Positions 25,712-46,898 of a stretch of DNA of 64,000 nucleotides are shown piece after piece. Position 1 is the first letter of the stretch. The number at the start of each line of letters is the position of its first letter. This stretch comes from Holophagae bacterium. GTDB taxonomy: Bacteria; Acidobacteriota; Holophagae; Acanthopleuribacterales; Acanthopleuribacteraceae. The position numbers and the translations under genes are program-made. A model generated the notes under the pieces. That model was not told the DNA's origin. It saw only the letters and a list, made by a program, of their open reading frames with translations, and made no database searches. Location of the stretch: NCBI GenBank assembly GCA_029263455.1, contig JAJCXM010000005.1:1-64000 (forward strand). The letters are read 5' to 3'.

Positions 25712-25782
25712 CAGGTCTGACGACCAGCTGGCTGGCCTTGTAAAGTATCTAAATGACGAGTAGTGACAGAGAGGTGAGTAAG

Positions 25783-26205: not shown

Positions 26206-26242
26206 TAAAAGACATTCGTCTGGACCTGTAAGCGAGGTTTAA

Positions 26243-26671: not shown

Positions 26672-26678
26672 GACTCAT

Positions 26679-27697: not shown

Positions 27698-28770
27698 AAA
27701 GAGCTTTCACCCTACTAGAACTCATGGTCGCCGTCCTGTTAGGCGCGCTAGTCGTGCTTATGATTGCAGGATCAATGCAAAATAGTATCCGCGCTTGGGA
27801 GGCCGCCCAAACTCGGATTGCAGAGAATTACGAACATCGAACAGTTCTCGACCTCATCAAACGCCAATCTTCAAGTATTTTTTATCGACGCGATGCGGAC
27901 TCCATCATTCGACAAGATACGGACAATGCCATTCCAAATCGTCAACAGCCCAATCGCCAGCAGCCCGGTCAAGCAAATCAACCGACGCCCCGTAGAAACG
28001 ACATGAGTACAGGGCGAGTCGCCCGCGGTGACCCCAACGAAGCAATCAACAAACCCAACAACCGCAGTAACGTCAAACCTAACAATACAAGCCAGCAATT
28101 CGAATTGCCCGGTGGCGCCCATTTCTTCAAGGGTTCTATCCAGGCTTTGAGTTTTATGTCGACGGTTTCATTTTTGTCCGACTTTCCGGGCCAATGCGCC
28201 GTCAAATATTATGTGTTCCAGACGGAAGAAGATTCGGAGAACGACGGTGCAACACCTGGTGTTTCTACACCGCCGGAAGGTTACTTAGATGAAGAGTATG
28301 AAGCCCTGGAGAGTGGACTTTGGCTAGTCTTGGAAGAACGCAACTTGTTTGTCAGCGAAACACAGCAAGATGAGGCAAATGACCCTTTGTTGAACGACGA
28401 CCCCGAAGATCCCAACCAGATCAAAGAAGAACAAGAAGAAACAATAGAAGATGAATCATTTGAAGACCTGGGCGACATCGAATCAACGCAGAGCATGGTG
28501 TTATTGGGACCCTTACGCAAGTTCTCTATCCGCTATAGGACACCCAAAAAGCCGGACAACGAAGACGATGAAGAAGACGACAAATGGGCAGAGTATTGGG
28601 ATTACAATGCAAACAACGGGTATCCAAGCGCCATTGAATTCATACTCGTCTACGAAAAGCCCGGCATAGACGATGAAACCGAAACAGACGACTTGCCCGG
28701 TGTGCGTATGGTGATTCCTGTTTATGATTTGCAGAATCTTAGAAGGGATCGCTCCAATGTACCCTTCTAA
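27694..28770 (+). CDS. gspJ: Minor pseudopilin GspJ
   Basis: TTG start at 27694 sharing bases with the gspI stop and preceded by GGGGAGAGGA; the frame opens earlier at 27544, inside gspI. About 358 residues: leader LKRA, mature FTLLELMVAVLLGALVVLMIAGSM, Ala at -1. Longer than typical GspJ (~200) because of low-complexity N/P/Q-rich residues (~75-125) and an acidic E/D-rich stretch (~215-265). The GLWLVLEERNLF and LLGPLRKFSIRYR segments are the usual GspJ strands. Confidence 0.85.
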   Translation: MKRAFTLLELMVAVLLGALVVLMIAGSMQNSIRAWEAAQTRIAENYEHRTVLDLIKRQSSSIFYRRDADSIIRQDTDNAIPNRQQPNRQQPGQANQPTPRRNDMSTGRVARGDPNEAINKPNNRSNVKPNNTSQQFELPGGAHFFKGSIQALSFMSTVSFLSDFPGQCAVKYYVFQTEEDSENDGATPGVSTPPEGYLDEEYEALESGLWLVLEERNLFVSETQQDEANDPLLNDDPEDPNQIKEEQEETIEDESFEDLGDIESTQSMVLLGPLRKFSIRYRTPKKPDNEDDEEDDKWAEYWDYNANNGYPSAIEFILVYEKPGIDDETETDDLPGVRMVIPVYDLQNLRRDRSNVPF

Positions 28771-29743
28771 ACATAGAGCCAGTATTCTGGTAACCGTTCT
28801 CTGGACCATCATTGTCATGTCAATCATTGCCCTGGGGATGGCTTATGAATCTCGCAGCGACGTGGATCGCACGATTCTTATGCGTGACCGCGCAGATGCC
28901 TACTGGATCGCTCGATCAGGCGTTGAATACAGCAAACACGCTTACGCCATATCTCGCCAACGTTTAGACGAGGAATACGAGCAGAAAGGTAAGATGACCT
29001 TTGAATTCGAGCGAGGCTATGCCGTTTGTGTCATGGAGAGTGAGACATCTAGGATGCCCATCAACTCTCAAAACGTCGACCTTTGGAGGCAAGCCTTTAA
29101 GATATTCGCGCAAGACGATCAGAAGATTGACGAGTTAGTGGACGCCGTTTTTGATTGGCGTGACAAGGACGAAGAAACACGCACCAACGGTGCAGAGGCA
29201 GAATATTACCAAAGTCTCACACCTCCATACCAACCGCGCAATGGCACCTTTATGAGTGTGGAGGAGATTTTGTTGGTTAAAGGAATAACGGAAGACATGT
29301 ATTATGGAGGCTTCCGCGACGGCCAGAAAAGGCCCGGCCTCAAAGAATTACTGTCAATCGACAATCCTAATATGGGTAGATTTGATATCAACACATGCCC
29401 AAAAGAGATACTGATAGCTTTCTTAGAGATCACGCCGGAAGATGCCGAATCACTGATAGCGGCGCGGGAAGAGAAGGTATTCGAGAATGTTAACGAAGCT
29501 GGTGAACACATATCGATTGAGGCTGCGGAAAACTTAAACAAGTTTTTCATCGCATATCGAGGCAACCAGTTTCGGGTCCGATCAACCGGCCATCTGTACA
29601 ATTCGCCAATCAAGTACACCGTTGAGGACGACGTTCGATATGTTGGCGGTAGCCAGCTATTTATGACCATTGCCCACAAAGATTTCACCTTGGAACACGT
29701 CGATGGAACGTTTTCCGCAGATGACGAAAACGAAGAGGAATGA
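28757..29743 (+). CDS. gspK: Minor pseudopilin GspK
   Basis: ATG at 28757 after AAGGGATC; an in-frame start at 28724 lies deeper inside gspJ. ~328 residues: N-terminal hydrophobic segment HRASILVTVLWTIIVMSIIALGMAYESRSDV, which carries no charged Glu-5, as expected for GspK. The GspK fold follows: YWIARSGVEYSKHAY, VDAVFDWRDKDEETRTNGAEAEYY, SVEEILLVKGITEDMYYGG, and FDINTCPKEIL. It caps the pseudopilus and is essential for assembly in model systems. Overlaps gspJ by 14 bases and gspL by 4. Confidence 0.9.
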   Translation: MYPSKHRASILVTVLWTIIVMSIIALGMAYESRSDVDRTILMRDRADAYWIARSGVEYSKHAYAISRQRLDEEYEQKGKMTFEFERGYAVCVMESETSRMPINSQNVDLWRQAFKIFAQDDQKIDELVDAVFDWRDKDEETRTNGAEAEYYQSLTPPYQPRNGTFMSVEEILLVKGITEDMYYGGFRDGQKRPGLKELLSIDNPNMGRFDINTCPKEILIAFLEITPEDAESLIAAREEKVFENVNEAGEHISIEAAENLNKFFIAYRGNQFRVRSTGHLYNSPIKYTVEDDVRYVGGSQLFMTIAHKDFTLEHVDGTFSADDENEEE

Positions 29744-31152
29744 TGCAGAAGCCAGATCTACAAATGGAAATCAACTTGCGCACCAAGGGCTGGGGTATCT
29801 CCGTTCACAGTGACCGCTTGGTGTTAACTGCCATTCGCAACCGCTTTAAGCAAATTCGTTTGGCGGCAACCGCAGAACTTGAAAATCTATCTCAAAAAAG
29901 CGATGACGAAGTGCGCGAATTCATCGATGACTTCATTGATGAACATCGACTCAAACGTGGCGAAGCATTCTTAGGCTTGCCGCGACGCCAGGTACAATTA
30001 CAGCTAGTCGAATTCCCGCTTGAAGCCGCCGAATCATTAGACGAAGTGCTCAGTTACCAAATCGAGAATCTGTTCCCGGGAAACTACGATCAATTCGACT
30101 TTTTTCATCAAATATTAGGGCGCTACGATCAATTGATTGTCTTAGTCATTGCCATTCGCAAAGAGGATATGGGCCGTATATTCGCCGAAATCCGCCGTTG
30201 GAATTTAGGTCTAGCTGGCGTCGCATTAGAGGCGTGTGCATGGTTGAACGCCATGGCGCGACTCAAAGGCGATCAATTCCTCAATCAGAAATACGCTCTC
30301 TTTCACTTTGATCAGGATTCGCTTGAATTGGTCATCATTCGCGATGGACGCCTCGTATTGGACGAATGGATAGAATACCGTGATGATCACTTGGAAGATG
30401 ACATAACCGCTGGACTCGAACGGGCATTTAGCTCGGGGCGCGTGGATCCCAATGAATTGGACCTATTCCTGCTAAGTGGCGCTGCGCCAGATCGCGCGCT
30501 TGATTTCTTACGTGATCAGGTGGGTATACAGTTCAATACACTTGAAGACTCGATGGGAAAATCAATCCCACCTTCATCCATCTATGGGACAGGTCTAGCC
30601 ATTACGGCTGTGTATGACAAAGTGCCGCTACAACTCAATCTGTTACCCCAGAACCTGCGTAAGCGACACCGGCACTTACCACTGTTGATTGCTTCGTTTG
30701 TGGTCTTTGTATTTATGGCTTACTTTTTTTACGGCGAGTTTCGCGACTTCAAAAAGATCAAGCGTGAATTGGCTTTTGCCAAGACACAAAGTCAAAGGCT
30801 GCAAGAACGCGTCGAAGAATTGAGCGCTGTGCAACTGGACTTCTTCACCAAGGAAGAGCAAGTCAAGACGTTCTACAAGTTCAGGCATTCCGACGGCGTC
30901 GCCTTGAAATTACTTTATGAAATAACCCAAGCGCTTCCTGACCACACCTACCTAACTAGTTTCTCCGTTCGCAGCGGTGATCAATTAACCATTCAGGGCG
31001 AATCCGAAGAGCCTTTCGCCGTACGTTCGAAACTGCAGTCACTGCCCTTCCTCAGCGATGTCGACACCAAGAACGCCATTACGCCAGGACGAGATCCGAG
31101 TAAAAAGAAGTTCACCTTTGGCGCGCGTATTGTCTTGGAGGCCCTGAAATGA
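29740..31152 (+). CDS. gspL: GspL: fused PilM-like actin fold and PilN-like periplasmic domain
   Basis: 470 residues; ATG overlaps the gspK stop (ATGA). Residues ~5-300 resemble the cytoplasmic actin-like domain (WGISVHSDRLVLTAI... LDEVLSYQIENLFPG, then GAAPDRALDFL). One span at ~311-330 (LPLLIASFVVFVFMAYFF) is followed by a coiled coil (~335-375) and a PilN/GspL ferredoxin-like domain (VALKLLYEITQALPDHTYLTSFSV... GESEEPFAVRSKLQSL). It recruits GspE to the membrane and contacts GspM. Length and layout suit GspL, not a split PilM/PilN. Confidence 0.85.
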   Translation: MMQKPDLQMEINLRTKGWGISVHSDRLVLTAIRNRFKQIRLAATAELENLSQKSDDEVREFIDDFIDEHRLKRGEAFLGLPRRQVQLQLVEFPLEAAESLDEVLSYQIENLFPGNYDQFDFFHQILGRYDQLIVLVIAIRKEDMGRIFAEIRRWNLGLAGVALEACAWLNAMARLKGDQFLNQKYALFHFDQDSLELVIIRDGRLVLDEWIEYRDDHLEDDITAGLERAFSSGRVDPNELDLFLLSGAAPDRALDFLRDQVGIQFNTLEDSMGKSIPPSSIYGTGLAITAVYDKVPLQLNLLPQNLRKRHRHLPLLIASFVVFVFMAYFFYGEFRDFKKIKRELAFAKTQSQRLQERVEELSAVQLDFFTKEEQVKTFYKFRHSDGVALKLLYEITQALPDHTYLTSFSVRSGDQLTIQGESEEPFAVRSKLQSLPFLSDVDTKNAITPGRDPSKKKFTFGARIVLEALK

Positions 31153-32093
31153 AGAAATACAGTTCGCGCGAAAAGAGATTGTTAAACATGATGATCTTCG
31201 TGGTCGTCGTGGGCGTCATAGCCGAAGTCTATGACCGTTTCTCGGTTCGAAAGCAAGAAATGCTGGTTCTGATTGACACCGAGAAATCAGCTCAAGATGT
31301 CTATTGGCAAAAGCTCGACGTCGATGAAGATAAGATGCATAGCCAAATCGAGCAGTTTGATAAGGTGTTAAATGAAGCCGAAGAACGCTTATTACAGATT
31401 CCGGTTGAGTCCGACGCCATATTTAAAGTTCAGGAACTCTTATCCGATCTAGGCGAAAAGGCGAAGATCGGCATGAACAGCCAAAACAAACGCAAATCCA
31501 ATGTGCTTTCAGAAGAAAAGAATATTTTGGAGTTACGAACCTATTTTGGATACGACTGTTCCCTAGAGGATATGCTGGTGTTCTTTGACATGTTAAAAGA
31601 ACAACCCTACTATTTTGCAGTCGACACGTTAAATATCAACTCATATAGTCGTCGTCGCAGTCGACGTCCGAGTAAAAAAGAAGATCCAAATATCGACCGC
31701 ATCCGAGGCTCGATGGTCATCTCAACATTATTTACGCCGGGTGAAGGTGAGTTTATTGCAAACGTGGTTGAGCCGAGACCAAGGATATCCGATGAGGAAC
31801 CGCTGGATTCTGAAGATACAATAGATGAACCCGATTCAGATAAATCGATCGCTAAGGTTGAAGACGATTTGGAAGATGAAGAAACCCATGAAGACAACAC
31901 AAGCTCGAACCAAGATTCGGAAACCAACGTCGAGCCCGAGCAACTCGCTAACGAAGGTCCACCGCCAATCTCCGACGTTGGCAAATTACCGCCCCCCAAA
32001 ACCCGACCACTCACATCACACGCGCAAAGGCTAAACAAAATTAAGGCTTTGGACCAGCCCTCGCCGTCCAAATCAGAGCAAAAGGAGGATTGA
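31149..32093 (+). CDS. gspM: GspM/PilO-like protein with long acidic tail
   Basis: 314 residues; start overlaps gspL. Short cytoplasmic part, one span (MMIFVVVVGVIAEVY, residues ~14-28), a coiled coil (~35-85), then a PilO/GspM-like domain (LELRTYFGYDCSLEDMLVFFDML... YYFAVDTLNINSY). Residues ~205-314 are low-complexity, rich in Glu, Asp, Ser and Pro, unlike ordinary GspM, which ends after ~170 residues. It should stabilise GspL in the alignment complex. Assignment rests mainly on position and fold pattern. Confidence 0.75.
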   Translation: MKKYSSREKRLLNMMIFVVVVGVIAEVYDRFSVRKQEMLVLIDTEKSAQDVYWQKLDVDEDKMHSQIEQFDKVLNEAEERLLQIPVESDAIFKVQELLSDLGEKAKIGMNSQNKRKSNVLSEEKNILELRTYFGYDCSLEDMLVFFDMLKEQPYYFAVDTLNINSYSRRRSRRPSKKEDPNIDRIRGSMVISTLFTPGEGEFIANVVEPRPRISDEEPLDSEDTIDEPDSDKSIAKVEDDLEDEETHEDNTSSNQDSETNVEPEQLANEGPPPISDVGKLPPPKTRPLTSHAQRLNKIKALDQPSPSKSEQKED

Positions 32094-32094
32094 C

Positions 32095-32676
32095 GTGCGC
32101 TTTATACTTATTCTATTAGGCATGACGAGCATACTGTCTGCCCAAGACTATGTGGATACGATCGTCAAGCGGAACCCTTTTGATCCTGCCCGAGGACAAA
32201 TGGAATTGGTCGAAGAAGTTGTCGAACCCATTGTGCAGAACATTGGAATGCCGGTTTTAGACGGCACCATAATCATTGGGGAAATGAAAGTGGCTCTGTT
32301 CACGTACACTGCAGAAGGCAGACCTAAATCAACGCGCGTAAAAGTGAATGAATCCGTTCAAGGCTATGTGGTAACGGAAGTCACCCGTAATGCGGTTCAA
32401 TTAAGTGGCGGCGGTGACCGTCCCATTCTTGTCACCATGTACGCCGATAAGAATAAGAGTAGAGGTGGTACAAAAGCACCTGCTGGCGGTAATGCAACTG
32501 CGCGCGAACGCAGCGCCAAGATGAACACCGAACCGGAAATCATTACGACTCGCGATACAAACGAAAAGAATGCCGAAGAGAGCAAAAAGCAGCGATTCAA
32601 ACGACGCGACCCTCCTCCGACTCGCAAAACAGATCCAGAAACCGCCAAAAAGTCGTCAATGGACAACAAAATCTAG
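32095..32676 (+). CDS. gspC: GspC/PilP-like protein, signal-peptide form
   Basis: 193 residues, GTG after an excellent AAAGGAGG. It begins with a cleavable-looking signal (residues 1-16, LSAQD) rather than the membrane anchor of classical GspC. It then carries a homology-region-like core: RNPFDPARG, VLDGTIIIGEMKVALFTY, and RVKVNESVQGYVVTEVTRNAVQLS (residues ~25-120). The rest is a Lys/Arg-rich disordered tail with no PDZ domain. This core binds the secretin N0 domain in PilP and GspC. Assignment as GspC is from position, just before gspD. Confidence 0.72.
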   Translation: MRFILILLGMTSILSAQDYVDTIVKRNPFDPARGQMELVEEVVEPIVQNIGMPVLDGTIIIGEMKVALFTYTAEGRPKSTRVKVNESVQGYVVTEVTRNAVQLSGGGDRPILVTMYADKNKSRGGTKAPAGGNATARERSAKMNTEPEIITTRDTNEKNAEESKKQRFKRRDPPPTRKTDPETAKKSSMDNKI

Positions 32677-32698
32677 TTCAATTTAAAGGTCAAGATAC

Positions 32699-34873
32699 AT
32701 GATGAACAAGCGTATATGGATGTGTGCCGCATTGCTTTATGTGCTCGGCATTTCAGCCTGCCAAAAAAAAACCAACCTGGTGGACAAAGCGTTCGAGGGT
32801 AAGAAATTCGATCACCGCATCGGCGACCAAGACCAAGCGCCCGATTTACCCGACGAAGTCAAAGAGCCTGAAGGCGAAAAGTCAGAAGTATTGGTCGATA
32901 ATCTGCCCGAACCTAGTGGCAAATCCGAGTTCTTAACTACCGACAAGGAAGACCGAACTGCATTTCCTGGTGAGCGACCGGTAACTGTCAACCCGCCATC
33001 GCCTATCCTAAATTTTGAAGATGCAAAACTCTACGACATCATTCACACCCTTTGCGAAGTAATGGAAGTCAATTTCATCATTGATCCTAGTGTAAAGGAC
33101 CAAACGATCACGATCGGCATGATCGAGGGCGATCACAAAATGACGACCCTTGAGTTGTTTGATCTCATCCTTAAACTTCACAACCTCACCTATGTCGCGA
33201 ATCAGAGTTTCTTGCGTATCGTCCCCATCGAATCTCCCGATGTCATGCCTGGCATTCGTCTACTTCACGGAGCGATTCCGAACCCGAATTTGATGATTGA
33301 AGAGTTGGCCATCCAGATCGTGCCACTGAGGTACACCACGCCTTCCGATATTAGTGCCGTCGTCAAAGAGTTCCTGAGTCCGACGGCTCGCATCATGGAA
33401 GAACCCATCAACAATCTCTTGATTATCATGGACAAATACAATTTCATTGCCAAAGCGATGGAAGTAATCCCCATATTTGATATCAACGTACTGCAAAACA
33501 AAAAGATGGTCCTATACAACTTAAGCCATGTGGACGCAGTAGATACGGCAACGGAACTTCAGGAAATTTTGGCCGCCTATGGGCTGGAAGGCGATGAACG
33601 CGTCAAGTTTTTTCCCATCCTGTCGCTCAACGCGGTAATGGTAGTATCCAGCGTCGCTGAAGTCTTTGACGAAATTAAGTTTTGGATCGAGAAGTTGGAC
33701 AAAGAGGCCCAATTTGAAGAGCCTCAAGTCTTCGTTTATCAAATACAAAATACAACCGCCGATGTACTTTCCAGCATGTTAAGTCAAATCTACGGATTCG
33801 CAGCAGGCGGAGCCGGTCAGGGTCGCACAAATACTGCCGCATCGCAACGACGAACAACAAGCCCAACCGGCAACCCCAACGATCAGAATAATCGCACCCA
33901 AGATCAGCGCCAAACCGCTGCAGGAGCTGAGAATCCAGAGTTACAGTCGCTACCCGGAGCTGACGCCGCACGGAACATGATCATCGATACCGACAACAAC
34001 GCGTTGCTCTTCAATACCACACCCAGGGAGTACTACAAAATCCTGAAGACACTGGTCAAGTTGGATATCCTACCGCGCCAAGTTTTTATGGAAGTAACGG
34101 TGCTCAACGTGTCGCTGAAGGATGGCTATAACCTAGGCGTCAACTGGAACGCGAGCAGCGGCAACCAAGATACAGATCCATCCAGATCACGATCATTTTC
34201 TTTTACACCTGATGGAACTGCCTTCTCGTATAGCTACACTGCTCTAACCAAGAGTATCGTCGCTGCCGTAAGCGCCGCGAAGAACAAAGGCTACGCAAAC
34301 GTGTTACAACAGCCTCATATCATGGCGTTAGATAACAAACAGGCTTCCATTTCGATCGGCGACGATATCCCCATTGTCACCTCCAACATCAATATACCTG
34401 GTGTCGGAAGCGGTACGGATCAGGTAGTGACCTCCAACAATGTCCAGTATCGTAAGACCGGTGTTGACCTCCAGTTCACACCTCATATCAACGCCAACGG
34501 CGTGATTCGCCTTGAAATTAACCTTTCGATTTCTTCGGTAGGTGCTGAAGTCTCCAGCGGAAATGGTCAACCCTCAATTAGCAATAACGAACTATCTACG
34601 GAGATCATCGTACGCGACAATCAAACCATCGTTATGGGCGGCATGATTTCAGACAGTGAGCAATGGGGTAAGGACACCATTCCTTTCCTAGGCAGAATCC
34701 CCCTGATCAAACATTTATTTACACGCCGGGACTCGTCGTCTAGTAAAGCGGAGCTCATTGTTCTAATCACGCCTCGTCTAATCGACAACGAAGAAAAGTC
34801 TATTGAGATCTCAACCGAATTTAAAGAGAAGATTCTAAAAGAATTTGAGAACTTTAAGGAAGAGCGCGAGTAA
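32699..34873 (+). CDS. gspD: Type II secretion secretin GspD (lipoprotein)
   Basis: 724 residues. The signal ends GISAC, so the N-terminus is probably lipidated, which can replace a pilotin. Domains: disordered acidic linker (~25-100), N0 (ILNFEDAKLYDIIHTLCEV, ~100-185), N1 (IQIVPLRYTTPSDISAVVKEFL), N2 (MVLYNLSHVDAVDTATELQEIL), and N3 with a ~65-residue N/Q/T-rich insert (VFVYQIQNTTADVLSSMLSQI). The secretin domain (~455-710) has PRQVFMEVTVLNVSL, NVLQQPHIMALDNKQASISIGDDIP, YRKTGVDLQFTPHI and TIVMGGMISD. It forms the outer-membrane channel. Stop overlaps the next gene. Confidence 0.95.
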   Translation: MMNKRIWMCAALLYVLGISACQKKTNLVDKAFEGKKFDHRIGDQDQAPDLPDEVKEPEGEKSEVLVDNLPEPSGKSEFLTTDKEDRTAFPGERPVTVNPPSPILNFEDAKLYDIIHTLCEVMEVNFIIDPSVKDQTITIGMIEGDHKMTTLELFDLILKLHNLTYVANQSFLRIVPIESPDVMPGIRLLHGAIPNPNLMIEELAIQIVPLRYTTPSDISAVVKEFLSPTARIMEEPINNLLIIMDKYNFIAKAMEVIPIFDINVLQNKKMVLYNLSHVDAVDTATELQEILAAYGLEGDERVKFFPILSLNAVMVVSSVAEVFDEIKFWIEKLDKEAQFEEPQVFVYQIQNTTADVLSSMLSQIYGFAAGGAGQGRTNTAASQRRTTSPTGNPNDQNNRTQDQRQTAAGAENPELQSLPGADAARNMIIDTDNNALLFNTTPREYYKILKTLVKLDILPRQVFMEVTVLNVSLKDGYNLGVNWNASSGNQDTDPSRSRSFSFTPDGTAFSYSYTALTKSIVAAVSAAKNKGYANVLQQPHIMALDNKQASISIGDDIPIVTSNINIPGVGSGTDQVVTSNNVQYRKTGVDLQFTPHINANGVIRLEINLSISSVGAEVSSGNGQPSISNNELSTEIIVRDNQTIVMGGMISDSEQWGKDTIPFLGRIPLIKHLFTRRDSSSSKAELIVLITPRLIDNEEKSIEISTEFKEKILKEFENFKEERE

Positions 34874-37380: not shown

Positions 37381-37921
37381 TGGTTTTCCGATCAACCTAG
37401 TCGTTGATCGTCATCCTCCCCAAGACGCCTGTTTTGAGAATTGGAGTGTAACCACGGTTGGCTACAAAAGCGAAGGAATAGGTGAAATCGATTGCCTTCT
37501 TGACGTCACCAATCGCATGTCAACTGCCACAATCGAATGGCGCTTGATCCGTGCAAGTATGGAGGAACGACAAGATAACCTGTATCCAAAAACCCAATTA
37601 ACGGCGCAAATGCAGAACATGTTGCGCTTTGAACACTATTACGTGCAAGCCTTGACACTGGTGGTATTAGGTGGATTCGTCCCTAAAACAGTGCCCCTGG
37701 GGCCACTTGAATTGCAAGGCTTACCCATGAGTCCCAAGCAAAGTGACGAGCTGCTCATCTTTGACCCATTCATCATTCGCGACCGCGAACAGTCATTAGT
37801 GCTTGTAAGAACAAGGGTTCAATTACGTGCAAATCGCGATTTCTTTCTGGGATTAGGTCGACAGGGCGAACGTGAATTGAGTATGCTCTCGGCGAGGTTC
37901 AATCGGGTGGGCAATGGCTAA
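37373..37921 (+). CDS. Unknown protein of the second secretin locus
   Basis: The ATG at 37373 overlaps the preceding stop; its own stop overlaps the GspF-like gene. 182 residues without a signal peptide or clear membrane span. A motif-free mixed fold: WSVTTVGYKSEGIGEIDCLLDV, MLRFEHYYVQALTLVVLGGFVP, QSLVLVRTRVQLRANRDFFLGL. The strict overlap on both sides with the locus genes indicates a shared function, probably a cytoplasmic component. No family recognised. Confidence 0.6.
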   Translation: MNDGFPINLVVDRHPPQDACFENWSVTTVGYKSEGIGEIDCLLDVTNRMSTATIEWRLIRASMEERQDNLYPKTQLTAQMQNMLRFEHYYVQALTLVVLGGFVPKTVPLGPLELQGLPMSPKQSDELLIFDPFIIRDREQSLVLVRTRVQLRANRDFFLGLGRQGERELSMLSARFNRVGNG

Positions 37922-39122
37922 CTTTCGCGTAAAGGTAGGTTCGGGCAACGGTGAAGTTGTGATCAAAGAGGCTGTCGGCCCAACCGCGGCTGTGGTGCGG
38001 GAGAAATTCTTGGACGACGGCTATTTCGTTTTCAACATAAGCAGAAACTGGTCGATTAACGACATTAGCCAACTAGGACGCAAGCTTTCGACACGTCAGT
38101 TCATCCTTTTCAATCGCGAGTTCAGAGGGTTGGTCAAAGCAGGGGTACCCGTCGTCGAGGGTCTAAAAATGGTCGTCGAGCGCCAGAAACCGGGCGCTTT
38201 ACGCGCCATGTTAGGTCAGGTACACGACCGTCTAATTCAAGGCGATCCCCTGTCACAAGCCTTTGCTGGCTTCGAAGGACTTATCCCTGCGTATTATCCA
38301 GCGTTGCTTGTCGCTGGAGAACAGTCTGGTCGCCTACCGGAAGTACTTGAACGATTCATTAGCCAAGAAACGCGCATGCAAAAGATGCGGAGCAAATTCC
38401 GTAACGCGTTAACTTATCCGCTCTTTTTATTAGTGGTGGGCATGGCCGCGCTATATGTGATCCTTGGTCGCGCAATGCCCCAATTCGCAGGACTCTATCG
38501 AGATTCAGCTCAGGATCTGCCATTAGCCACAGAAATCGTGATGGCGCTAGGCGATATTGTGTCGCAACACGCGGGCACCATTGGCCTAGCCATGTTAGGC
38601 CTGTTTGCCTTGTTGATTTATGTGTTTAAGAGCGGTTGGGGCCAGCAACTGATAGAGAGGGTTATTTGGCGTATTCCCATCATTGGCAGTCTTTGGCGCC
38701 TGCAAAACCAAAATGCATTTGCCTGGACCATGAATATGTTGCTGGCTGGAGGCGTACCTGTCCCTGAAGCGATGTTGGTAGCCGCTCGTTCGGCCGCATC
38801 GCCCAAAGTCCGTGCCCAAATTCTGGCAGCACAAGCAGCCGTGGTAACAGGCTCAAGTCTAGTCCAAGCGATCGATGATCACGTCGAGTTTGAAGACGTT
38901 CTGGGCGACATGGTCAAGATCGGTGAATCTACAGGGACCCTGGACGAGATGCTGGCATACGTCGCCGAAAACGGTGAAGAACACGCGGGTGATCAACTGG
39001 AACTCATCAGCAATGTCTTCGCCCCTTTCTTATTGCTGCTAGTCGGTGTCACGATTGCGGCTTTGGTGATGGCAATGTACCTGCCGATGTTTGGTGTCGC
39101 GGATCTGATTTCAGGACCTTGA
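37914..39122 (+). CDS. GspF/PilC-like platform protein of the second locus
   Basis: 402 residues. An N-terminal ~55-residue domain (FRVKVGSGNGEVVIKEAVGPTAAVVREKFLDDGYFVF) precedes two GspF repeats: FILFNREFRGLVKAGVPVVEGLKMV with LLVAGEQSGRLPEVLERF, and NAFAWTMNMLLAGGVPVPEAMLVA with MVKIGESTGTLDEMLAYV. Membrane spans lie near residues 170-190, 222-240 and 372-395. It would anchor the assembly ATPase encoded eight bases downstream. Distinct from gspF at 24482, with little block identity beyond family motifs. Confidence 0.93.
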   Translation: MANFRVKVGSGNGEVVIKEAVGPTAAVVREKFLDDGYFVFNISRNWSINDISQLGRKLSTRQFILFNREFRGLVKAGVPVVEGLKMVVERQKPGALRAMLGQVHDRLIQGDPLSQAFAGFEGLIPAYYPALLVAGEQSGRLPEVLERFISQETRMQKMRSKFRNALTYPLFLLVVGMAALYVILGRAMPQFAGLYRDSAQDLPLATEIVMALGDIVSQHAGTIGLAMLGLFALLIYVFKSGWGQQLIERVIWRIPIIGSLWRLQNQNAFAWTMNMLLAGGVPVPEAMLVAARSAASPKVRAQILAAQAAVVTGSSLVQAIDDHVEFEDVLGDMVKIGESTGTLDEMLAYVAENGEEHAGDQLELISNVFAPFLLLLVGVTIAALVMAMYLPMFGVADLISGP

Positions 39123-39129
39123 GGAGACG

Positions 39130-40710
39130 ATGGTGAATACACAGCAGGATGCCAAAAGCTTAGCCACCCAACATGGGTTGCCTTTTCGTGATCTCGCCCA
39201 TTTTGTCTTAAGCGGCGATTTGCTGGCGTTAATGCCTGTCGATTACATGATTAGGTACACATGCCTGCCCTTGGGTGTCGAAGGCAACCAGCTGCTTGTG
39301 GCTCTGGCCGATCCAACCCTGCTGGATCATCTAGACGAACTCGAAGTCTTGGTGGGCCGCCGTGTCACACCCGTCATGGCACCTAAGGAACATATCCAAA
39401 AAGTACTGAAAGAGTCGCAAAGCTCAAGGCGGGTACTGCAAGAAGCCACCTCCGATTTCCGCATGAAATTCAGTGATGTTAGCGAAGAAAACGACGAGGT
39501 GCTTGACGCTTCGCGTTTAGTAAACGACGGATCACCGTTGGTTCGTCTAGTAGACACCACTATTTACAATGCCTTGGAACGACGCGCCTCCGACATACAC
39601 ATCGAGACCGCCGCAGAACAGGTATGCATCAAATTCCGCATCGACGGTGTTCTGTATCAAGCGATGGAACCCATCGACAAGCGTCATCATGTCACCATCA
39701 TCTCGCGCATTAAAGTCATGTCCCAGTTAGACATTGCCGAAAAACGTGTTCCGCAGGATGGACGTTTCAAACTACGGATCAAGGGTCGCGTGATTGATTT
39801 CCGCGTATCCATAATGCCTACCATTCACGGTGAAGACGCCGTCATCAGAATCCTGGACAAGGAATCAACCACCGATCATTTCACCGCACTCGATTTGGCC
39901 GTACTCGGTTTTGACGGCAATCTGCTACGTGATCTTCGTCGTGTCATACGCGAGCCCTATGGCATGGTACTGGTTACGGGCCCAACCGGAAGCGGAAAAA
40001 CAACCACCTTATATGCTTGTCTCACCGAGATCCAAAACAGTGAAGACAAGATTATCACCATCGAGGATCCTGTCGAGTACCAACTAGGTGGCGTCACTCA
40101 GATCCCAATCAACGAAAAGAAAGGGCTCACCTTTGCGCGCGGGTTACGGTCGATTCTGAGACACGATCCTGACAAGATCATGGTAGGTGAAATACGCGAT
40201 ACCGATACCGCCCAAATCGCCATTCAATCAGCCCTAACCGGGCATCTAGTGTTCACCACCGTCCATGCCAACAATGTGATCGATGTGATAGGGCGTTTTG
40301 TGAATATGGGCGTGGATCTGTATAACTTCGTTTCTGCACTCAACGGCGTAGTCGCCCAACGTTTGGTGCGCTTGATTTGCAGTAAGTGCAAAGAGCCAAC
40401 CACCTTAACCACCGAACAATTAGAATCATCTGGGTTACCCGCTGATCTGGGTCGAGAAGTCATTTTTTATCAGGGCCGTGGTTGTTTGGCATGTCACGGT
40501 ACAGGCTACCGCGGTCGTACGGTCATCGCAGAAATGTTACAGGTCAATGACGATGTGCGTCAGGCGATTGTTGAGCGACGTCGTATCTCGGAGTTGAAGT
40601 CTTTGGCAGTTAAGTCCGGAATGCGATTCCTGCGCCAAGCGGCTGTAGCCAAATTACGGGAAGGTGTCACCACGTTGCATGAAATCAATAAAGTTACATT
40701 CATTGAATAA
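39130..40710 (+). CDS. GspE/PilB-like assembly ATPase of the second locus
   Basis: 526 residues, start after GAGGAGA. N-terminal GspE domain (~10-100; DAKSLATQHGLPFRDLAHF), then SPLVRLVDTTIYNALERRASDIHIET, Walker A GPTGSGKTTT near residue 284, DPDKIMVGEIRD, TGHLVFTTVHANNV, the tetracysteine zinc motif CSKC ... CLAC, and the C-terminal RRRISELKSLAVKSGMRFL. It should drive assembly of the pilin-like proteins encoded at 45498-46898. It retains all catalytic motifs, so the second locus is not a relic. Confidence 0.95.
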   Translation: MVNTQQDAKSLATQHGLPFRDLAHFVLSGDLLALMPVDYMIRYTCLPLGVEGNQLLVALADPTLLDHLDELEVLVGRRVTPVMAPKEHIQKVLKESQSSRRVLQEATSDFRMKFSDVSEENDEVLDASRLVNDGSPLVRLVDTTIYNALERRASDIHIETAAEQVCIKFRIDGVLYQAMEPIDKRHHVTIISRIKVMSQLDIAEKRVPQDGRFKLRIKGRVIDFRVSIMPTIHGEDAVIRILDKESTTDHFTALDLAVLGFDGNLLRDLRRVIREPYGMVLVTGPTGSGKTTTLYACLTEIQNSEDKIITIEDPVEYQLGGVTQIPINEKKGLTFARGLRSILRHDPDKIMVGEIRDTDTAQIAIQSALTGHLVFTTVHANNVIDVIGRFVNMGVDLYNFVSALNGVVAQRLVRLICSKCKEPTTLTTEQLESSGLPADLGREVIFYQGRGCLACHGTGYRGRTVIAEMLQVNDDVRQAIVERRRISELKSLAVKSGMRFLRQAAVAKLREGVTTLHEINKVTFIE

Positions 40711-40719
40711 GGTGAAGTT

Positions 40720-41499
40720 ATGGCTGTAAAGACGTCACAGTGGATCTACGTAAGTCGCAATAGCATTCAGTCAAATGTGCCTACCCCTTGGCGAAAAGAT
40801 TGGACGCAACCCGAATTACCTGAGCCGCAAAAAATCGTCGACTGTTTGGACGAACACCAAATGGACAGCGGCAAAGCTGCCCTGTTATTAGATGAATCCT
40901 GGCAACGCCCGCTCCGCCTTGAACGCGAATCGAACATCGCCAAGAAGGACTTGGATGCATTCGTGCGTTGGCGCCTAAAACGCTACTTACCTTATGCCAT
41001 CGAACAAGCGTTGGTTCGTTATGTGGCTTTAGGAGTTAGCGAACAAATCTTAGTTACTAGCCTGCCAAAACCTTGGGTCGACGGCGTCTACGAGGCATGT
41101 GCCAAACGTGGCACCCAGCTCGGCTTCATAGGGGGACTTTCAAGTCTCTTCCTAGGACTAAAATCCTATGCCAATACCTGCGTTGTCGCTATCTATGCGG
41201 ATAGTTACGTGGTGATTGAATTTGATCGCAAAGCCAGGTTCTTAGATTACACCCATCGGCATTTGCCTGAAACAGATCAGGCCAGCATTGATATTGATAC
41301 TTTGGTTGACCGTGACTTGTCTGGCCTCAACGCGCCACGTCTCCAGCTCTTGAATTTCGAAGCCAAACACACGCATGACTGCCAACTCATTGCCCAGCGG
41401 CTAACGGACCTGAATAAACAAACATCGATCGTGTCCGCCCGCGCTAGCTTGATTGAGATGGTCACAGAGCATCTGGCCGCCGAGGTGTCTTTCGCATGA
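40720..41499 (+). CDS. Divergent PilM/GspL-type cytoplasmic protein
   Basis: 259 residues, soluble. Position directly before PilN- and PilO-like genes and the segments SGKAALLLDESWQRPLRLE, KKDLDAFVRWRLKRYLPYAIEQALVRYVALG, EQILVTSLPKPWVDGVYEACAKRG and CVVAIYADSYVVIEF fit an actin-like PilM fold. ATP-binding glycine motifs are not obvious. It would link the ATPase to the inner-membrane PilN-like protein. Ends overlapping the next gene (ATGA). Confidence 0.7.
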   Translation: MAVKTSQWIYVSRNSIQSNVPTPWRKDWTQPELPEPQKIVDCLDEHQMDSGKAALLLDESWQRPLRLERESNIAKKDLDAFVRWRLKRYLPYAIEQALVRYVALGVSEQILVTSLPKPWVDGVYEACAKRGTQLGFIGGLSSLFLGLKSYANTCVVAIYADSYVVIEFDRKARFLDYTHRHLPETDQASIDIDTLVDRDLSGLNAPRLQLLNFEAKHTHDCQLIAQRLTDLNKQTSIVSARASLIEMVTEHLAAEVSFA

Positions 41500-42059
41500 A
41501 CCATCCACTTAATTTTTCGCCACATCCTTTCCGAGGACACAACCCCAAGCTCTATGGCATTTGGGCACTCAACTTGGGTCTCTTAGTTGCCGGCATTTGG
41601 GCAGCATCAGTTTGGTTGCAATTGCGCGGCGACAATAGTCAATCCCACGCTCAGCTTTCGCTCCTGCAAACAGAGGAACAGCAAATCGCTCAAGACATGA
41701 GCCATGCGCTGACTAAGCTAGGTACGATTAACCTGAAAAGTTACAACAAAGAGATGGAACAGTATGGCTCAATCCAACAATCGTTAGACAGCAACTGGGT
41801 ACAGCTTCTGGATGACCTTGCCAGTCTCGTCAACGAAGATGTGCGGATTATGCGTATCCAGTCCGGCGAGGCCAGCGGCCAACAGGACATGCCACTCACC
41901 CTTCGAGGCGAATCCAGAAATAAAGACGCTCAACTGCAATTCATTCGCGCCATTCAAGCCCATCCGTCATTTCGCGATGTACGTTTTGACTTAGAGTCCT
42001 ACGACCAATCCAGAATACGTTTTGAACTGCGTTTTGCCTACCGAGGAGGTGCCGTTTGA
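41496..42059 (+). CDS. PilN-like inner-membrane alignment protein
   Basis: 187 residues: short cytoplasmic N-terminus (NHPLNFSPHPFRGHN, resembling the PilN INLLP motif), one span (~22-42, LYGIWALNLGLLVAGIWAASVWL), a coiled coil (~50-95), and a ferredoxin-like PilN domain (SLDSNWVQLLDDLASLVNEDVRIMRIQSGEA... LQFIRAIQAHPSFRDVRFDL). Overlaps both neighbours by four bases. Expected to pair with the PilO-like protein. Confidence 0.8.
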   Translation: MNHPLNFSPHPFRGHNPKLYGIWALNLGLLVAGIWAASVWLQLRGDNSQSHAQLSLLQTEEQQIAQDMSHALTKLGTINLKSYNKEMEQYGSIQQSLDSNWVQLLDDLASLVNEDVRIMRIQSGEASGQQDMPLTLRGESRNKDAQLQFIRAIQAHPSFRDVRFDLESYDQSRIRFELRFAYRGGAV

Positions 42060-42613
42060 GCCGTTTCCTATGGTCGTGGCCCATACAGTTGACGATCACG
42101 ATTTTGCTCTTTGTCACGTTGGCACTGATCTGGTTTTTAGCTGTGGGTTCTGAGCAAAACCTTAAGTCAGATTCAGCCGGCCACTTGGACCTAGCGCGTC
42201 TAGAAATGAGGCAAGCTCGTCGGGATGCGGCGCGCCTCAAGCAAGCGTTAGATCGTTATGACAATAACCGAGACCAGATACGTTACCTCAAGGACCAGTT
42301 CCTGACTCGAAAAGATGAACGGGTCGTAGAGATTTCCAAGGCATTGAACGACCTTGCAAAAACCTATCAAATTGGCATCGACGAGGTTCGTTACACCTCA
42401 GCAAATAGCCAAAACAAGGATTTGGAGCTCTACCGAGTCGAATTCCCTATGCAGGGTCGTTACCGAGACTTACGCAATTTTGTACATGACATTGAGGGCT
42501 CAGATTTGCAACTGATGGTCAAGCAAATTGAAGTCGAAGAATCGACGGAATATCAAGGCGCCGTGCGCGCCCGCTTGAGCTTAGCCACCTATTTCGAACG
42601 GAGCCAGCCATGA
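42056..42613 (+). CDS. PilO-like inner-membrane alignment protein
   Basis: 185 residues; TTG start overlapping the previous stop. One span (residues ~9-30, LTITILLFVTLALIWFLAVG), a long coiled coil (~40-90), and a ferredoxin-like PilO domain (QIGIDEVRYTSANSQNKDLELYRVEFPMQGRYRDLRNFVHDIEGSDLQLMVKQIEVEES). Gene order after the PilN-like gene supports the call. Overlaps the PilP-like gene by four bases. Confidence 0.8.
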   Translation: MSRFLWSWPIQLTITILLFVTLALIWFLAVGSEQNLKSDSAGHLDLARLEMRQARRDAARLKQALDRYDNNRDQIRYLKDQFLTRKDERVVEISKALNDLAKTYQIGIDEVRYTSANSQNKDLELYRVEFPMQGRYRDLRNFVHDIEGSDLQLMVKQIEVEESTEYQGAVRARLSLATYFERSQP

Positions 42614-43206
42614 ATTCGAAACGCATACGATGGCTCGCAATGCTCGCAGCTCTCTTGCTCATCGCCAACATTGCCACTCGCTTTGGCGGCGACGAACAAC
42701 GCGAGTTCGGCTGGTCAGCTGATAACCGGCCCTCGCTCAAGGAGCCAAAAGTCGCACGCACTTTGGACCAACTTACGAATCACACCTTGCTGCAATTTAA
42801 AGACGCACAAGTTGAGCAGACCCACGAACAGCAAGGAAGAAACCCATTCGAATTTGGCGTTGACCGCAAACTAGCTCAACAAAGAGCACAACAACAGGAA
42901 TCCATGCGTCAGTTAGCGGCCATGGAAGCGATTATCCAGGACGCTTCTCAGGCGGATGAATCGGTTGAAGAGAGAGCCGTATTTGACGGTATCGTTCTAG
43001 GCGTTTTTCAAGACACTGAAGACGGCTCTCGTCGTGTCGCTTTGAAACATGACGACATCGTTTGGGTTTTGGGAAGTGGCGAACGAATCAAGAATCTATA
43101 TGAGGTGCGCGCGATTAGCGATCGCCAGGTGATTATGATCCACCTTGCACAAGACGAAGAAATAACCATTTCTTACGCTGAAGAATCACCAGCAGGGCGC
43201 TGGTAA
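42610..43206 (+). CDS. PilP/GspC-like periplasmic linker protein
   Basis: 198 residues. N-terminal span or signal (residues ~6-20, IRWLAMLAALLLIANIA), a Gln-rich helical linker (QQRAQQQESMRQLAAMEA, ~85-110), and a C-terminal beta domain (VFDGIVLGVFQDTEDGSRRVALKHDDIVWVLGSGERIKNLYEVRAISDRQVIMIHL) matching the PilP/GspC homology region. It should tether the inner-membrane complex to the secretin encoded ten bases downstream. No PDZ domain. Confidence 0.75.
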   Translation: MNSKRIRWLAMLAALLLIANIATRFGGDEQREFGWSADNRPSLKEPKVARTLDQLTNHTLLQFKDAQVEQTHEQQGRNPFEFGVDRKLAQQRAQQQESMRQLAAMEAIIQDASQADESVEERAVFDGIVLGVFQDTEDGSRRVALKHDDIVWVLGSGERIKNLYEVRAISDRQVIMIHLAQDEEITISYAEESPAGRW

Positions 43207-43215
43207 GGAGCAAAC

Positions 43216-45501
43216 ATGCGATGCATCATGATTGGAATAGTGGCGATTTTTTTCTGGCAATGTAGCGGCAGGAAAATCACCCGAGACGCGCAACAGGCTA
43301 TGGACACAGCCCACTGGGACCGCGCGTACCAGCTTTGGGATCAAGTCCTCAAAGAAGATCCCAAGAATACCAGCGCCAAAATGCAGCGAGATCGATCACG
43401 GATTAATGCATCACTAGAGCACCTACAACGTGGCCTGCACTACGCAAAAGGGCAACAGCTAGACGAGGCGTTGTTCGAGTTGAGTCTGTCCTTGAGCTAC
43501 GACCCCTACAATCAGACAGCCATCGATATGCATGAAAGTGTAGTTAGCCAGCAAAAACAACAACTGGCTATGAAGTCCGATGAGTATGTGGAACCCGAAT
43601 CACCTTATTCCTCTTTCCCTGCCCTAGAACCAACAACTTGGAACCCCATCAATCTTCATTTCCCACAGCCCAAAGATATACGTGACATCTACGTTGCCAT
43701 GGGGCGCGCTTACGGTATTAATATCCTCGTAGACAGCAAAATTCGTTCGGACAAAATGGCTATAGATCTTCGCAATTTAGACTTTTTGAAGGCGCTCGAC
43801 ACCTTAATGGTCTTGAACCGCCATTTCTTCAAAGTGGTGGACCGCAACACCCTCATCATCCTTGAAGACAACAAACAAAACAAAGAACAATACACCAACC
43901 AAGTCATACGCACATTCTACCTATCCAACATCACGCCCAACGACCTCAAAAGCCATCTACGCACACTTGGCGACATGAAAGAATACGCGACTAACGATGA
44001 ACTCAACGCGATCACGATTAAGGGCACGCCCGAACAGATAGCGCTCGCAGAACGCATCATTACCACCAACGACAAACCTCAACCGGAAGTCATCATTGAA
44101 GTAGAACTTCTTGAAGTCAATAAAACAGCCATGCGACAAGTGGGTCTACTGCCCATCTCGACAATTGACGGTCAGAACGGCTACTCGGTTGGTATCCTTG
44201 CCGACCCCCTAGACCAAAGTGATAACGATAATGGTCTCCGTGGCTTTTTCCCCAATCTCAATTCCGAAGATTTTCTGACAGTGGTTCCTGCTCTGGCGCT
44301 TAACTTCCTCAAAGAGACCGGCGACTCTAAACAAGTCGCTAACCCCCATTTACGCGTGACCGCTGGCAAGGAAGCATCGATATTGATCGGTCAGAAAATA
44401 CCCATCGCGTCGACTTCATTCACACCGATTGGTCTGACAGGCAGTGGCAGCAATTCCAATAGCAATCAGTTCGGCGGACAGCCTCTCACCACCTTCAACT
44501 ACAACGATGTCGGCATCAAACTGTCCATCACGCCACGCGTTCACCACAACGATGAAGTCACCCTGACTCTGGACCTTGAGGTCTCTTCAGTGATCTCCCA
44601 ATCGCTACAACCCATACTGGGTCAACGCAAAGTCAATACCACCATTCGCTTGAAGAACAGCGAAACCAATGTATTGTTTGGGCTCTTACAAAACGATGAG
44701 CGGAAGTCCTTGACCGGCATTGCTGGCTTATCTGATATTCCCGTACTGGGTCGACTCTTCTCAAACAAAGACAGTGTCATCACACAGACCGATATCATTT
44801 TGACGCTTAAGCCAATCATTGTACGCGGCCACAATATCCGAGACAGTGATCGCGATACCTATGAATTGTCTGCCCTGTCTTTAACATCTCTTTACGGCGA
44901 TAGACGCCTGAAACAAGGGAAAGACTTGTCACCCATGGATCTCCAGATTCCCGATTCAGATGATGAATCCGCAAGCGACGCGTTCGTCCCCGAACACTCA
45001 AGGCCTGCACGCGCAAACGACACATCGCCCACAACAGACGAAACAGAAGAGGAGTTGCCCTTTGATGAAGCCGAAGAAGGTCCCGCTCCGGCCGTTTTGT
45101 CTTTCACGCCACTTCAGGTCTCGGCTCGCCAAGATGATTTTTTTGACCTGCAACTCTTCATCACCAATGTTCAACAACTCAAACGTGGGGAGATCGTCAT
45201 CGAATACGATCCCAACATCATTCAAGTCGAATCCGTTGACGTCGGTAACTTCATGGCCGGCCAGAAGAAGCCACTTCTCACACCAGCCTGGAATCACAAT
45301 GAGGGTCGAGTCAGTTTAGTCATTTTTCAACGTGACCAAGAAGAGGGCTTCAGCGGCTCCGGTATCCTAGCTAACCTCAAATTCAAGTCTATAGCCCCTG
45401 GCGATGGCAACCTTACGTTCACCCGCACGCTATTAGAAAATTTGGCCGGGCAAACGATTCCTGTGGAATCTTTACAAGCCATTTATGAGGTCGCTCCTTG
45501 A
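43216..45501 (+). CDS. TPR-secretin-cohesin fusion protein (outer-membrane channel of second locus)
   Basis: 761 residues. Exported, with a lipoprotein-like signal (Cys at residue 16, WQC; lipobox atypical). Residues ~25-115 hold TPR-like repeats (AYQLWDQVLKEDPKNTSAK, then EALFELSLSLSYDPYNQTA). N-domains follow (INLHFPQPKDIRDIYVAMGRAYGINILVD; VIRTFYLSNITPNDLKSHLRTL). The secretin domain spans ~290-545 (PEVIIEVELLEVNKTAMRQVGLLP, VANPHLRVTAGKEASILIGQKIP, YNDVGIKLSITPRV). After an acidic linker, residues ~625-755 show a cohesin-like fold: LSFTPLQVSARQDDFFDLQL, IEYDPNIIQVESVDVG, GRVSLVIFQ and GILANLKFKS. That end could bind dockerins or glycans at the surface. Confidence 0.88.
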   Translation: MRCIMIGIVAIFFWQCSGRKITRDAQQAMDTAHWDRAYQLWDQVLKEDPKNTSAKMQRDRSRINASLEHLQRGLHYAKGQQLDEALFELSLSLSYDPYNQTAIDMHESVVSQQKQQLAMKSDEYVEPESPYSSFPALEPTTWNPINLHFPQPKDIRDIYVAMGRAYGINILVDSKIRSDKMAIDLRNLDFLKALDTLMVLNRHFFKVVDRNTLIILEDNKQNKEQYTNQVIRTFYLSNITPNDLKSHLRTLGDMKEYATNDELNAITIKGTPEQIALAERIITTNDKPQPEVIIEVELLEVNKTAMRQVGLLPISTIDGQNGYSVGILADPLDQSDNDNGLRGFFPNLNSEDFLTVVPALALNFLKETGDSKQVANPHLRVTAGKEASILIGQKIPIASTSFTPIGLTGSGSNSNSNQFGGQPLTTFNYNDVGIKLSITPRVHHNDEVTLTLDLEVSSVISQSLQPILGQRKVNTTIRLKNSETNVLFGLLQNDERKSLTGIAGLSDIPVLGRLFSNKDSVITQTDIILTLKPIIVRGHNIRDSDRDTYELSALSLTSLYGDRRLKQGKDLSPMDLQIPDSDDESASDAFVPEHSRPARANDTSPTTDETEEELPFDEAEEGPAPAVLSFTPLQVSARQDDFFDLQLFITNVQQLKRGEIVIEYDPNIIQVESVDVGNFMAGQKKPLLTPAWNHNEGRVSLVIFQRDQEEGFSGSGILANLKFKSIAPGDGNLTFTRTLLENLAGQTIPVESLQAIYEVAP

Positions 45502-45950
45502 AACGAGGTTTCACGTATCTGGAACTGATTGTCGCGTTGGCACTATTGTCACTGCTGGCGGCCGCAGCCTTACCCAGTAGCCGCAAGATTGTGAAACGGC
45601 AAAAAGAAAACCAACTCAGGCACCAATTGACGCAAATACGGTCGGCCATCGACCGCTTCAAACGCATGGCTGACGCCTCCGAGATTCAAGTGGACGATCT
45701 TGATCAACTTGGTTACCCGGCTGATTTTGACGAGCTCGAACAAGGCGTTCCATTGACAGGTAAACCGGGTCAACATATGCGTTTCTTACGTCGCATACCC
45801 GTCGATCCAATGACGGGTGAAGCCAAGTGGGGTATGCGTTCTGTTCAGGATGATTTTGACGCCAGTAATTGGGGTGGAGAAAATTTATTCGATGTTTATT
45901 CACTGAGTGACGGCAGGGGCCTAGACGGGACGGAGTACGCCACATGGTAA
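45498..45950 (+). CDS. GspG-like pilin of the second locus (FTYLE type)
   Basis: TTG start overlapping the secretin stop. 150 residues: leader LKRG, mature FTYLELIVALALLSLLAAAALP with Gly at -1 and Glu-5, then a helical spine (ENQLRHQLTQIRSAIDRFKRM) and a C-terminal loop with FLRRIPVDPMTGEAKWGMRS ending FDVYSLSDGRGLDGTEYATW. The last block replaces the calcium loop of GspG with a shorter S-D-G...L-D-G-T signature shared with the next gene. Probable pilin subunit. Confidence 0.88.
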   Translation: MKRGFTYLELIVALALLSLLAAAALPSSRKIVKRQKENQLRHQLTQIRSAIDRFKRMADASEIQVDDLDQLGYPADFDELEQGVPLTGKPGQHMRFLRRIPVDPMTGEAKWGMRSVQDDFDASNWGGENLFDVYSLSDGRGLDGTEYATW

Positions 45951-46336
45951 TAAAACGTGCATTCACACTGCTCGAGATGATGGTTGTACTGGCCCTCATC
46001 GCATTGATCGCAGGTTTGGCAGCATCAACCCATCGCCATCGCGTACGCAAAGCAAAGGAAAACGTGTTAAGACATAACCTCGCTCAAATTCGTCTCACAT
46101 TGGATTCATATAATGCCGACAAGAGCCGTTACCCTGATAGCCTGCAAGACCTTGTTGATGAAGGATATTTTAGGGGCTTGCCCGACGACCCGGTTTCAGG
46201 ACGCAACGACACCTGGATCGAAGTCTATTTAGACGATTACGATGATGAAGACTCCGACTATGAACCCGGCGTCTTTGACGTCCATAGCGGAAGCGACGGA
46301 GTGGCACTAGATGGGACTCAATACAGTGAATGGTGA
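45944..46336 (+). CDS. GspG-like pilin of the second locus
   Basis: 130 residues: leader MVIKRA, mature FTLLEMMVVLALIALIAGLAAS (Ala at -1), spine ENVLRHNLAQIRLTLDSYNADKSRYPDSLQDLVDEGYF, and a Pro-Asp-Asp-Pro-Val-Ser turn. C-terminus FDVHSGSDGVALDGTQYSEW parallels the previous gene's end, so the two form a related pair with the same non-GspG loop. Overlaps the previous gene by seven bases and the following one by 26. Candidate major subunit. Confidence 0.88.
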   Translation: MVIKRAFTLLEMMVVLALIALIAGLAASTHRHRVRKAKENVLRHNLAQIRLTLDSYNADKSRYPDSLQDLVDEGYFRGLPDDPVSGRNDTWIEVYLDDYDDEDSDYEPGVFDVHSGSDGVALDGTQYSEW

Positions 46337-46898
46337 AAAGGGGCATATACTCATTGTCGCTATCATTTTAATCACGACGATGAGCCTTATCTTAGCCATG
46401 GTCATTGCGCCTATACGTACGCAGAAGCAAAGGCTCAAAGAACAAGATCTTATCTATCGAGGCGAACACTTAGCAGAAGGCATTCGCCGCTTCTATTTCA
46501 AATATAGAAGGTTTCCATTTGAGCTAGAAGAGCTAATCGAATCAGATCCCCGTTTAGTTAGACAACTCTATGCTGATCCCATGGCCGAAGACGGCGAATG
46601 GGAACTCATCTATCTAGTACCGCAGGACCAAGGAGTCTTACGCGTCATGCGTCGACTAATCGAACCACAGACACCGGACGACCAGGATCAAGACAATCCG
46701 TCGGACGGTAGCGGCCAAGACGAAGATTCGGTGTTTAATATCAAGACGCAACAGATCACTGGCATTCGTTCCAAATCGTCAGAAACAGGTTTGACCAAGT
46801 ACCAGGAAAGCCAAATCTATTCAGATTGGGAATTCACCGCATTGCCCAAAGAAGCAGCTATTTCGAAAGCCCTAGGATCAGCAACCGTTACCCCATAA
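46311..46898 (+). CDS. Third pilin-like protein of the second locus, atypical leader
   Basis: The ATG at 46311 lies inside the previous gene; a GTG at 46326 would shorten the leader to NGEKG. Cleavage after Gly would leave HILIVAIILITTMSLILAMVI, hydrophobic but lacking the aromatic first residue and Glu-5, as in GspK-type tip subunits. ~195 residues with spine EQDLIYRGEHLAEGIRRFYFKYRRFPFELEELIES, then YADPMAEDGEWELIYL and a Gln/Asp-rich linker. Probably a minor tip pilin. The stop lies inside a 40-base hairpin. Confidence 0.75.
   Translation: MGLNTVNGEKGHILIVAIILITTMSLILAMVIAPIRTQKQRLKEQDLIYRGEHLAEGIRRFYFKYRRFPFELEELIESDPRLVRQLYADPMAEDGEWELIYLVPQDQGVLRVMRRLIEPQTPDDQDQDNPSDGSGQDEDSVFNIKTQQITGIRSKSSETGLTKYQESQIYSDWEFTALPKEAAISKALGSATVTP

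Follow-up and report, generated by a model that had tools for sequence, protein, structure and literature searches.

A secretin with a C-terminal cohesin domain in Acidobacteriota: layout, distribution and possible role

A secretin gene in a compact second operon

The window (64,000 nucleotides of a Holophagae bacterium contig) contains a compact secretion/pilus-like operon at 37914-46898, in which a single open reading frame on the forward strand encodes a 761-residue secretin ending in a cohesin domain. This is the second such operon of the window, since a complete canonical type II secretion system (T2SS) operon lies a few kilobases upstream. The genes are as follows:

22734..34873, +, separate canonical T2SS operon (GspE, GspG and GspD above NCBIfam cut-offs)
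37914..39122, +, GspF/PilC-like platform protein (PF00482, E 1.6e-40)
39130..40710, +, GspE/PilB-like ATPase with an MshEN domain (PF00437, PF05157; TIGR02533 and TIGR02538 below their cut-offs)
40720..42613, +, three genes for PilM-, PilN- and PilO/GspM-like inner-membrane ring proteins (PF05137 for PilN; weak PilM, PilO and GspM matches; conserved order)
42610..43206, +, GspC/PilP-like gene directly 5' of the secretin (position and conserved order)
43216..45501, +, cohesin secretin, 761 residues (open reading frame call, Pfam, NCBIfam, full-length AlphaFold2 model)
45498..46898, +, two GspG-like pseudopilins and a third, minor-pilin-like gene (N_methyl, TIGR01710; conserved order)

The GspC/PilP-like gene gave no family match in Pfam or NCBIfam, and its label comes from its position and from the gene order, which is retained in most of the 24 related loci inspected. 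Three Acanthopleuribacter-type loci (L045, L046 and L048) have an open reading frame of about 770-790 residues 3' of the pilin genes, probably an outer-membrane protein, which in L048 has a DUF5916 match; in the window's operon a glycosyl-transferase-family-3 gene stands at that spot instead.

The canonical GspD, encoded at 32699-34873, serves as an internal control. It has three Secretin_N stretches, against the single one matched in the cohesin secretin, and scores 358.8 with the GspD equivalog profile TIGR02517 (cut-off 351), while neither a cohesin nor a TPR was found in it with Pfam. The two proteins share 27% identity over 198 residues, and the cohesin secretin reaches only 135 with TIGR02517, far below the cut-off, so that we do not call it a GspD. 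The absence of the cohesin from the canonical GspD indicates that this domain is a mark of the second machine and not a general trait of the organism's T2SS secretins. The locus is best read as a compact second machine of the T2SS/type IV-filament-like kind, with the cohesin secretin as its outer-membrane pore. The N-terminus of the canonical GspD is also lipobox-like (LGISAC).

The features of the cohesin secretin, all on the forward strand, are:

43216..43263, +, signal peptide up to the lipobox Cys16, FFWQ-C-S (Cys16 conservation and lipobox pattern in relatives)
43315..43575, +, two TPR-like helical hairpins, residues 34-120 (AlphaFold2 pLDDT about 95; profile matches to TPR structures; weak PilW match)
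43648..44085, +, N-domains, N0-like at residues 145-217 and Secretin_N at 232-290 (Pfam, AlphaFold2; N0-like by position and fold)
44308..44826, +, pore-forming secretin domain PF00263, residues 365-537 (Pfam E 9e-32; matches solved GspD structures)
44869..45075, +, disordered linker, residues 552-620, acidic in this protein (pLDDT 31-43)
45088..45498, +, cohesin domain, residues 625-761, about 137 residues (Pfam, AlphaFold2, Foldseek, profile against PDB sequences)
45118-45387, +, core match to Pfam PF00963 within the cohesin domain, residues 635-724

Both PF00263 and an N-domain are matched in Pfam (Secretin_N with 33.6 bits, cut-off 28.2), which places the protein in the secretin superfamily, and a weak TPR_2 match covers residues 69-99. 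The full-length AlphaFold2 model has four N-terminal helices (two TPR units), the N-domains, the secretin domain, a short helix after the barrel, the disordered residues 552-620 and the cohesin; its pTM is 0.43, and the relative arrangement of the domains is therefore not reliable. No S-domain was recognised in the C-terminal region on inspection of the sequence and the model.

The first-pass annotation had described an acidic linker after the secretin domain, which is correct for this protein (net charge −12) and does not extend to its relatives, where the linker is 42-161 residues long and its net charge runs from −23 to +6 (median −3). Since the charge varies in this way, only length and disorder are common to the family, and acidity was dropped as a functional feature.

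The cohesin domain and its distribution

The C-terminal domain has a cohesin fold. In a scan of the whole protein PF00963 scores 29.1 bits (cut-off 24.1, E 1.3e-6), rising to 32.6 bits when the C-terminal 150 residues are scanned alone. The AlphaFold2 model of residues 612-761, built on an alignment of 37 relatives, is an all-beta fold with a pLDDT of 93.8 and a pTM of 0.85. The best 50 Foldseek matches listed against the PDB are all cohesins, headed by 2xdh, a cohesin from Archaeoglobus fulgidus that is not part of a cellulosome (E 1.6e-10, TM 0.75/0.82), and at the sequence level family profiles match PDB cohesin sequences with E down to 9e-11, the profile of the closest relatives matching cohesins only. 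The cohesin pattern that had been noticed in the sequence at the C-terminus of a TPR-bearing secretin is thus borne out by profile, fold and structure search alike. The alternative considered then, a plain Ig domain, is ruled out by the fold search, with nothing but cohesins among the matches listed. The domain had been placed at 45060-45501; a cohesin does lie there, and the domain proper is narrower, at about 45088-45498.

The A. fulgidus domain has the same fold and likewise stands outside a cellulosome, but here the cohesin forms the C-terminal end of an outer-membrane secretin. It also resembles the cohesins of cellulosomal scaffoldins in profile and fold, from which it differs in being present as a single copy and in being unlinked to dockerin genes across genomes (see below).

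The first-pass annotation had also proposed a survey for secretins with the same domain order, and these proved to be widespread. A scan of a species-level genome collection found 86 relatives, of which 80 were kept. They include Acanthopleuribacter, Sulfidibacter, Geothrix and acidobacterial MAGs of Aminicenantes, Vicinamibacteria and Thermoanaerobaculia, together with one MAG labelled Fischerbacteria, whose locus coordinates are those of a genome that the survey counts under the phylum of the window, and one labelled Chrysiogenales. PF00963 is matched individually (E 0.01 or better) by the C-termini of 30 of 53 relatives. Geothrix-type C-termini miss the Pfam model, yet profile comparison shows them to be homologous (95.8%, E 7e-9), and those of the Thermoanaerobaculia-type group are probably homologous as well (87%, E 4e-6). 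The members in f1 and f3 retain conserved motifs, TN and PxW among them.

A cohesin match is present in 166 of 297 acidobacterial genomes, exactly one in 120 of the 166, and where a genome has one cohesin it is usually in a secretin-sized open reading frame. Automatic retrieval gave 30 cohesin loci, 19 of them with a secretin domain in the same frame; among 39 further loci there were 37, a figure biased by the choice of these loci by frame length; the pooled count is 56 of 69 cohesin frames inspected. The order lipobox, two TPRs, N-domains, secretin domain, disordered linker and cohesin is shared throughout Acidobacteriota, and most of the proteins end directly after the last strand. The fusion belongs to one acidobacterial secretin family, as a design shared at the level of the phylum, and the survey rules out a unique or recent event in the window's genome. 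Literature searches on cohesin with GspD and secretin domains, and on Acidobacteriota, found no description of this architecture, the key review on non-cellulosomal cohesins (Peer 2009) lying outside their coverage; the architecture may already be listed in domain databases.

Cohesin and dockerin across 297 genomes

Four dockerin_1 matches in the window's genome exceed the cut-off, and the genome's only cohesin above its cut-off is that on the secretin. Dockerin-like duplicated calcium-loop modules lie at other loci of this genome (among them L004, L006, L007 and L011) on large, secreted-looking open reading frames, often as the very last C-terminal element and with cysteines on either side; possibly they are sorting or stability tags. 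Their place at the ends of secreted-looking proteins meant that a dockerin partner deserved a test. In such a case the secretin cohesin would bind dockerin-tagged secreted proteins, and so select, retain or display the cargo of the system, which would agree with the classical function of the fold, with the modules just described, and with family f46, in which nearly all genomes carry one cohesin and one dockerin.

Across the 297 genomes, however, dockerin partners do not accompany the cohesin. The presence of the one is independent of the presence of the other (odds ratio 1.00, p = 1), in a test that treats related genomes as independent, ignoring phylogeny, and whose presence calls depend on profile cut-offs, so that a low-scoring dockerin would be missed. 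Dockerins were found in 28% of genomes with a single cohesin, 37% of those without a cohesin match and 61% of those with at least two cohesins (p = 1e-4 for 61% against 28%). Extra cohesins thus go with dockerins, and the secretin cohesin does not.

By family, a dockerin occurs in 1 of the 33 cohesin-positive genomes of f10 and in none of the 11 and 8 of f41 and f23, while four f17 genomes (G094, G107, G118 and G138) have 13-21 dockerin matches each and no cohesin match. The f3 genomes (Thermotomaculaceae-type) have no dockerin match at all and retain the cohesin, which on an f3-type secretin scores 32.8 bits with PF00963. A periplasmic cohesin, as argued below, would moreover permit capture only before export. 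Dockerin-tagged cargo is rejected as the general partner by the co-occurrence test, and we keep it as a quite unlikely alternative. Given the four dockerin-like modules, a species-specific cohesin-dockerin pairing is possible in the window's genome. At the locus L132 (genome G133) a cohesin domain and a terminal dockerin-like repeat stand in the same frame, which may hold both halves of the pair in one protein.

The lipobox, the position of the cohesin and the possible function

At the N-terminus, Cys16 is invariant to at least 90% in a set of 32 diverse relatives, and 68 of 75 sequences match the strict lipobox pattern, none of the 68 with Asp at position +2. By its predicted lipobox the family would consist of liposecretins, although the box of the window's own protein, FWQC (W at −2, Q at −1), fails the strict pattern. 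Behind it, a profile of the N-terminal helices finds TPR proteins with solved structures, and NCBIfam gives a weak PilW match to the region. No specific PilF or TadD match was present among the 60 matches listed for the TPR profile, and the similarity is to TPRs in general. These repeats had been taken as a second binding module, but their placement directly behind a conserved lipobox suggests a pilotin-like role instead of substrate binding, and we regard the lipid-TPR part as a candidate pilotin-like module acting in cis.

Two kinds of precedent bear on this proposal. PilF (PilW) and TadD are TPR lipoproteins that serve as secretin pilotins in trans (PMC10499894), and they resemble the N-terminus described here in having a lipid anchor followed by TPRs that acts on a secretin. 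They are separate proteins with six (PilF) and five (TadD) TPRs, whereas here two TPRs are fused to the pore. HxcQ, of the Pseudomonas aeruginosa T2SS, also bears an N-terminal lipid anchor on the secretin itself and is reported to pilot itself by this lipid (Viarre 2009, cited in PMC4604470); in the literature consulted, neither the TPR module nor the cohesin of the acidobacterial family is described for it.

The position of the cohesin can be judged from solved T2SS and Tad secretins, in which periplasmic lipoprotein pilotins attach, outside the pore, to the C-terminal region that follows the barrel (PMC6532946, PMC10499894). Since this region meets its pilotins on the periplasmic side, the cohesin would most likely be periplasmic and outside the channel. 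Like GspD/PulD with their S-domain, the acidobacterial protein combines a secretin domain, a pseudopilin operon and a C-terminal module after the barrel, but it has a tether and a cohesin where the S-domain would be.

This position bears on the first proposal made for the domain, namely that it captures glycans or cargo from a place in the channel or on the outer face of the pore. Cohesins are related in fold to carbohydrate-binding modules and the long tether would extend the reach of the domain, but the sequence and fold matches are to cohesins and not to such modules, the C-terminus of solved secretins follows the barrel on the periplasmic outside, at the pilotin site, and dockerins do not track the cohesin. 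We consider such capture very improbable, both for the outer face and for the vestibule.

The explanation that we favour, with moderate confidence, is a self-piloting lipo-secretin with a tethered cohesin-fold docking domain at the position of the S-domain, the partner of which is probably not a dockerin. The lipid and the TPRs would form a built-in pilotin that brings the secretin to the outer membrane, by analogy with HxcQ, PilF and TadD. The cohesin, tethered in the periplasm where T2SS secretins carry the S-domain, would be present once per subunit, and the tethered copies could form a protein-docking ring that aids pore assembly, anchoring or spacing in the envelope. Its partner would then probably be a conserved component of the envelope or of the machine, and not dockerin-tagged cargo. 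The docking role is inferred from the fold family and the position of the domain. Several points count against this explanation: the lipobox, conserved in the family, is imperfect in the window's own protein, there are only two TPR units, against five in TadD and six in PilF, with no specific homology to either found, and the genome itself carries the four dockerin-like modules.

The domain might instead be a cohesin-derived structural module that binds no separate partner and contacts only neighbouring subunits or the barrel wall, as an oligomer clamp replacing the S-domain. Its place at the S-domain position and its absence from the genome's canonical GspD would suit a clamp, as would the strong divergence of the sequence in places (Geothrix-type), though homology persists, and the end of most of the proteins right after the last strand. 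A tether of 42-161 residues, disordered in the model, would be unusual for a packed clamp, however, and the TN and PxW motifs of f1 and f3 could form a binding face, and we judge the clamp rather unlikely.

Returning to the self-piloting secretin with a docking cohesin, secretins are classified by their route to the outer membrane and by the part behind the barrel (S-domain, pilotin), and the acidobacterial family appears to unite both solutions in one chain, together with a domain best known from cellulosomes. More tentatively, and with considerable doubt, it may constitute a secretin class of Acidobacteriota's own, self-piloting, with its TPR pilotin in cis and a tethered cohesin ring that binds a dedicated, non-dockerin partner in the periplasm. 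If this is true, structural work within a secretion machine would be a new function for the cohesin fold. Should the domain serve as a structural part for docking, the annotation 'cohesin domain', with its suggestion of something cellulosome-like, misleads for many acidobacterial genomes. The secretin cohesin also sets a concrete problem, the finding of its partner, which can be put to the test in a major soil phylum.

At three loci (L103, L107 and L110, two from Aminicenantes-type MAGs and one from an acidobacterial MAG) no pilus-like operon surrounds the cohesin secretin, which adjoins giant open reading frames of 1393-1973 residues, cut by the end of the locus and rich in CarboxypepD_reg domains; at L110 a PKD protein lies nearby as well. 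These giant proteins were considered as dockerin carriers and discarded, with CarboxypepD_reg, a neighbouring PKD and no dockerin found. They are possibly dedicated cargo of the cohesin secretin.
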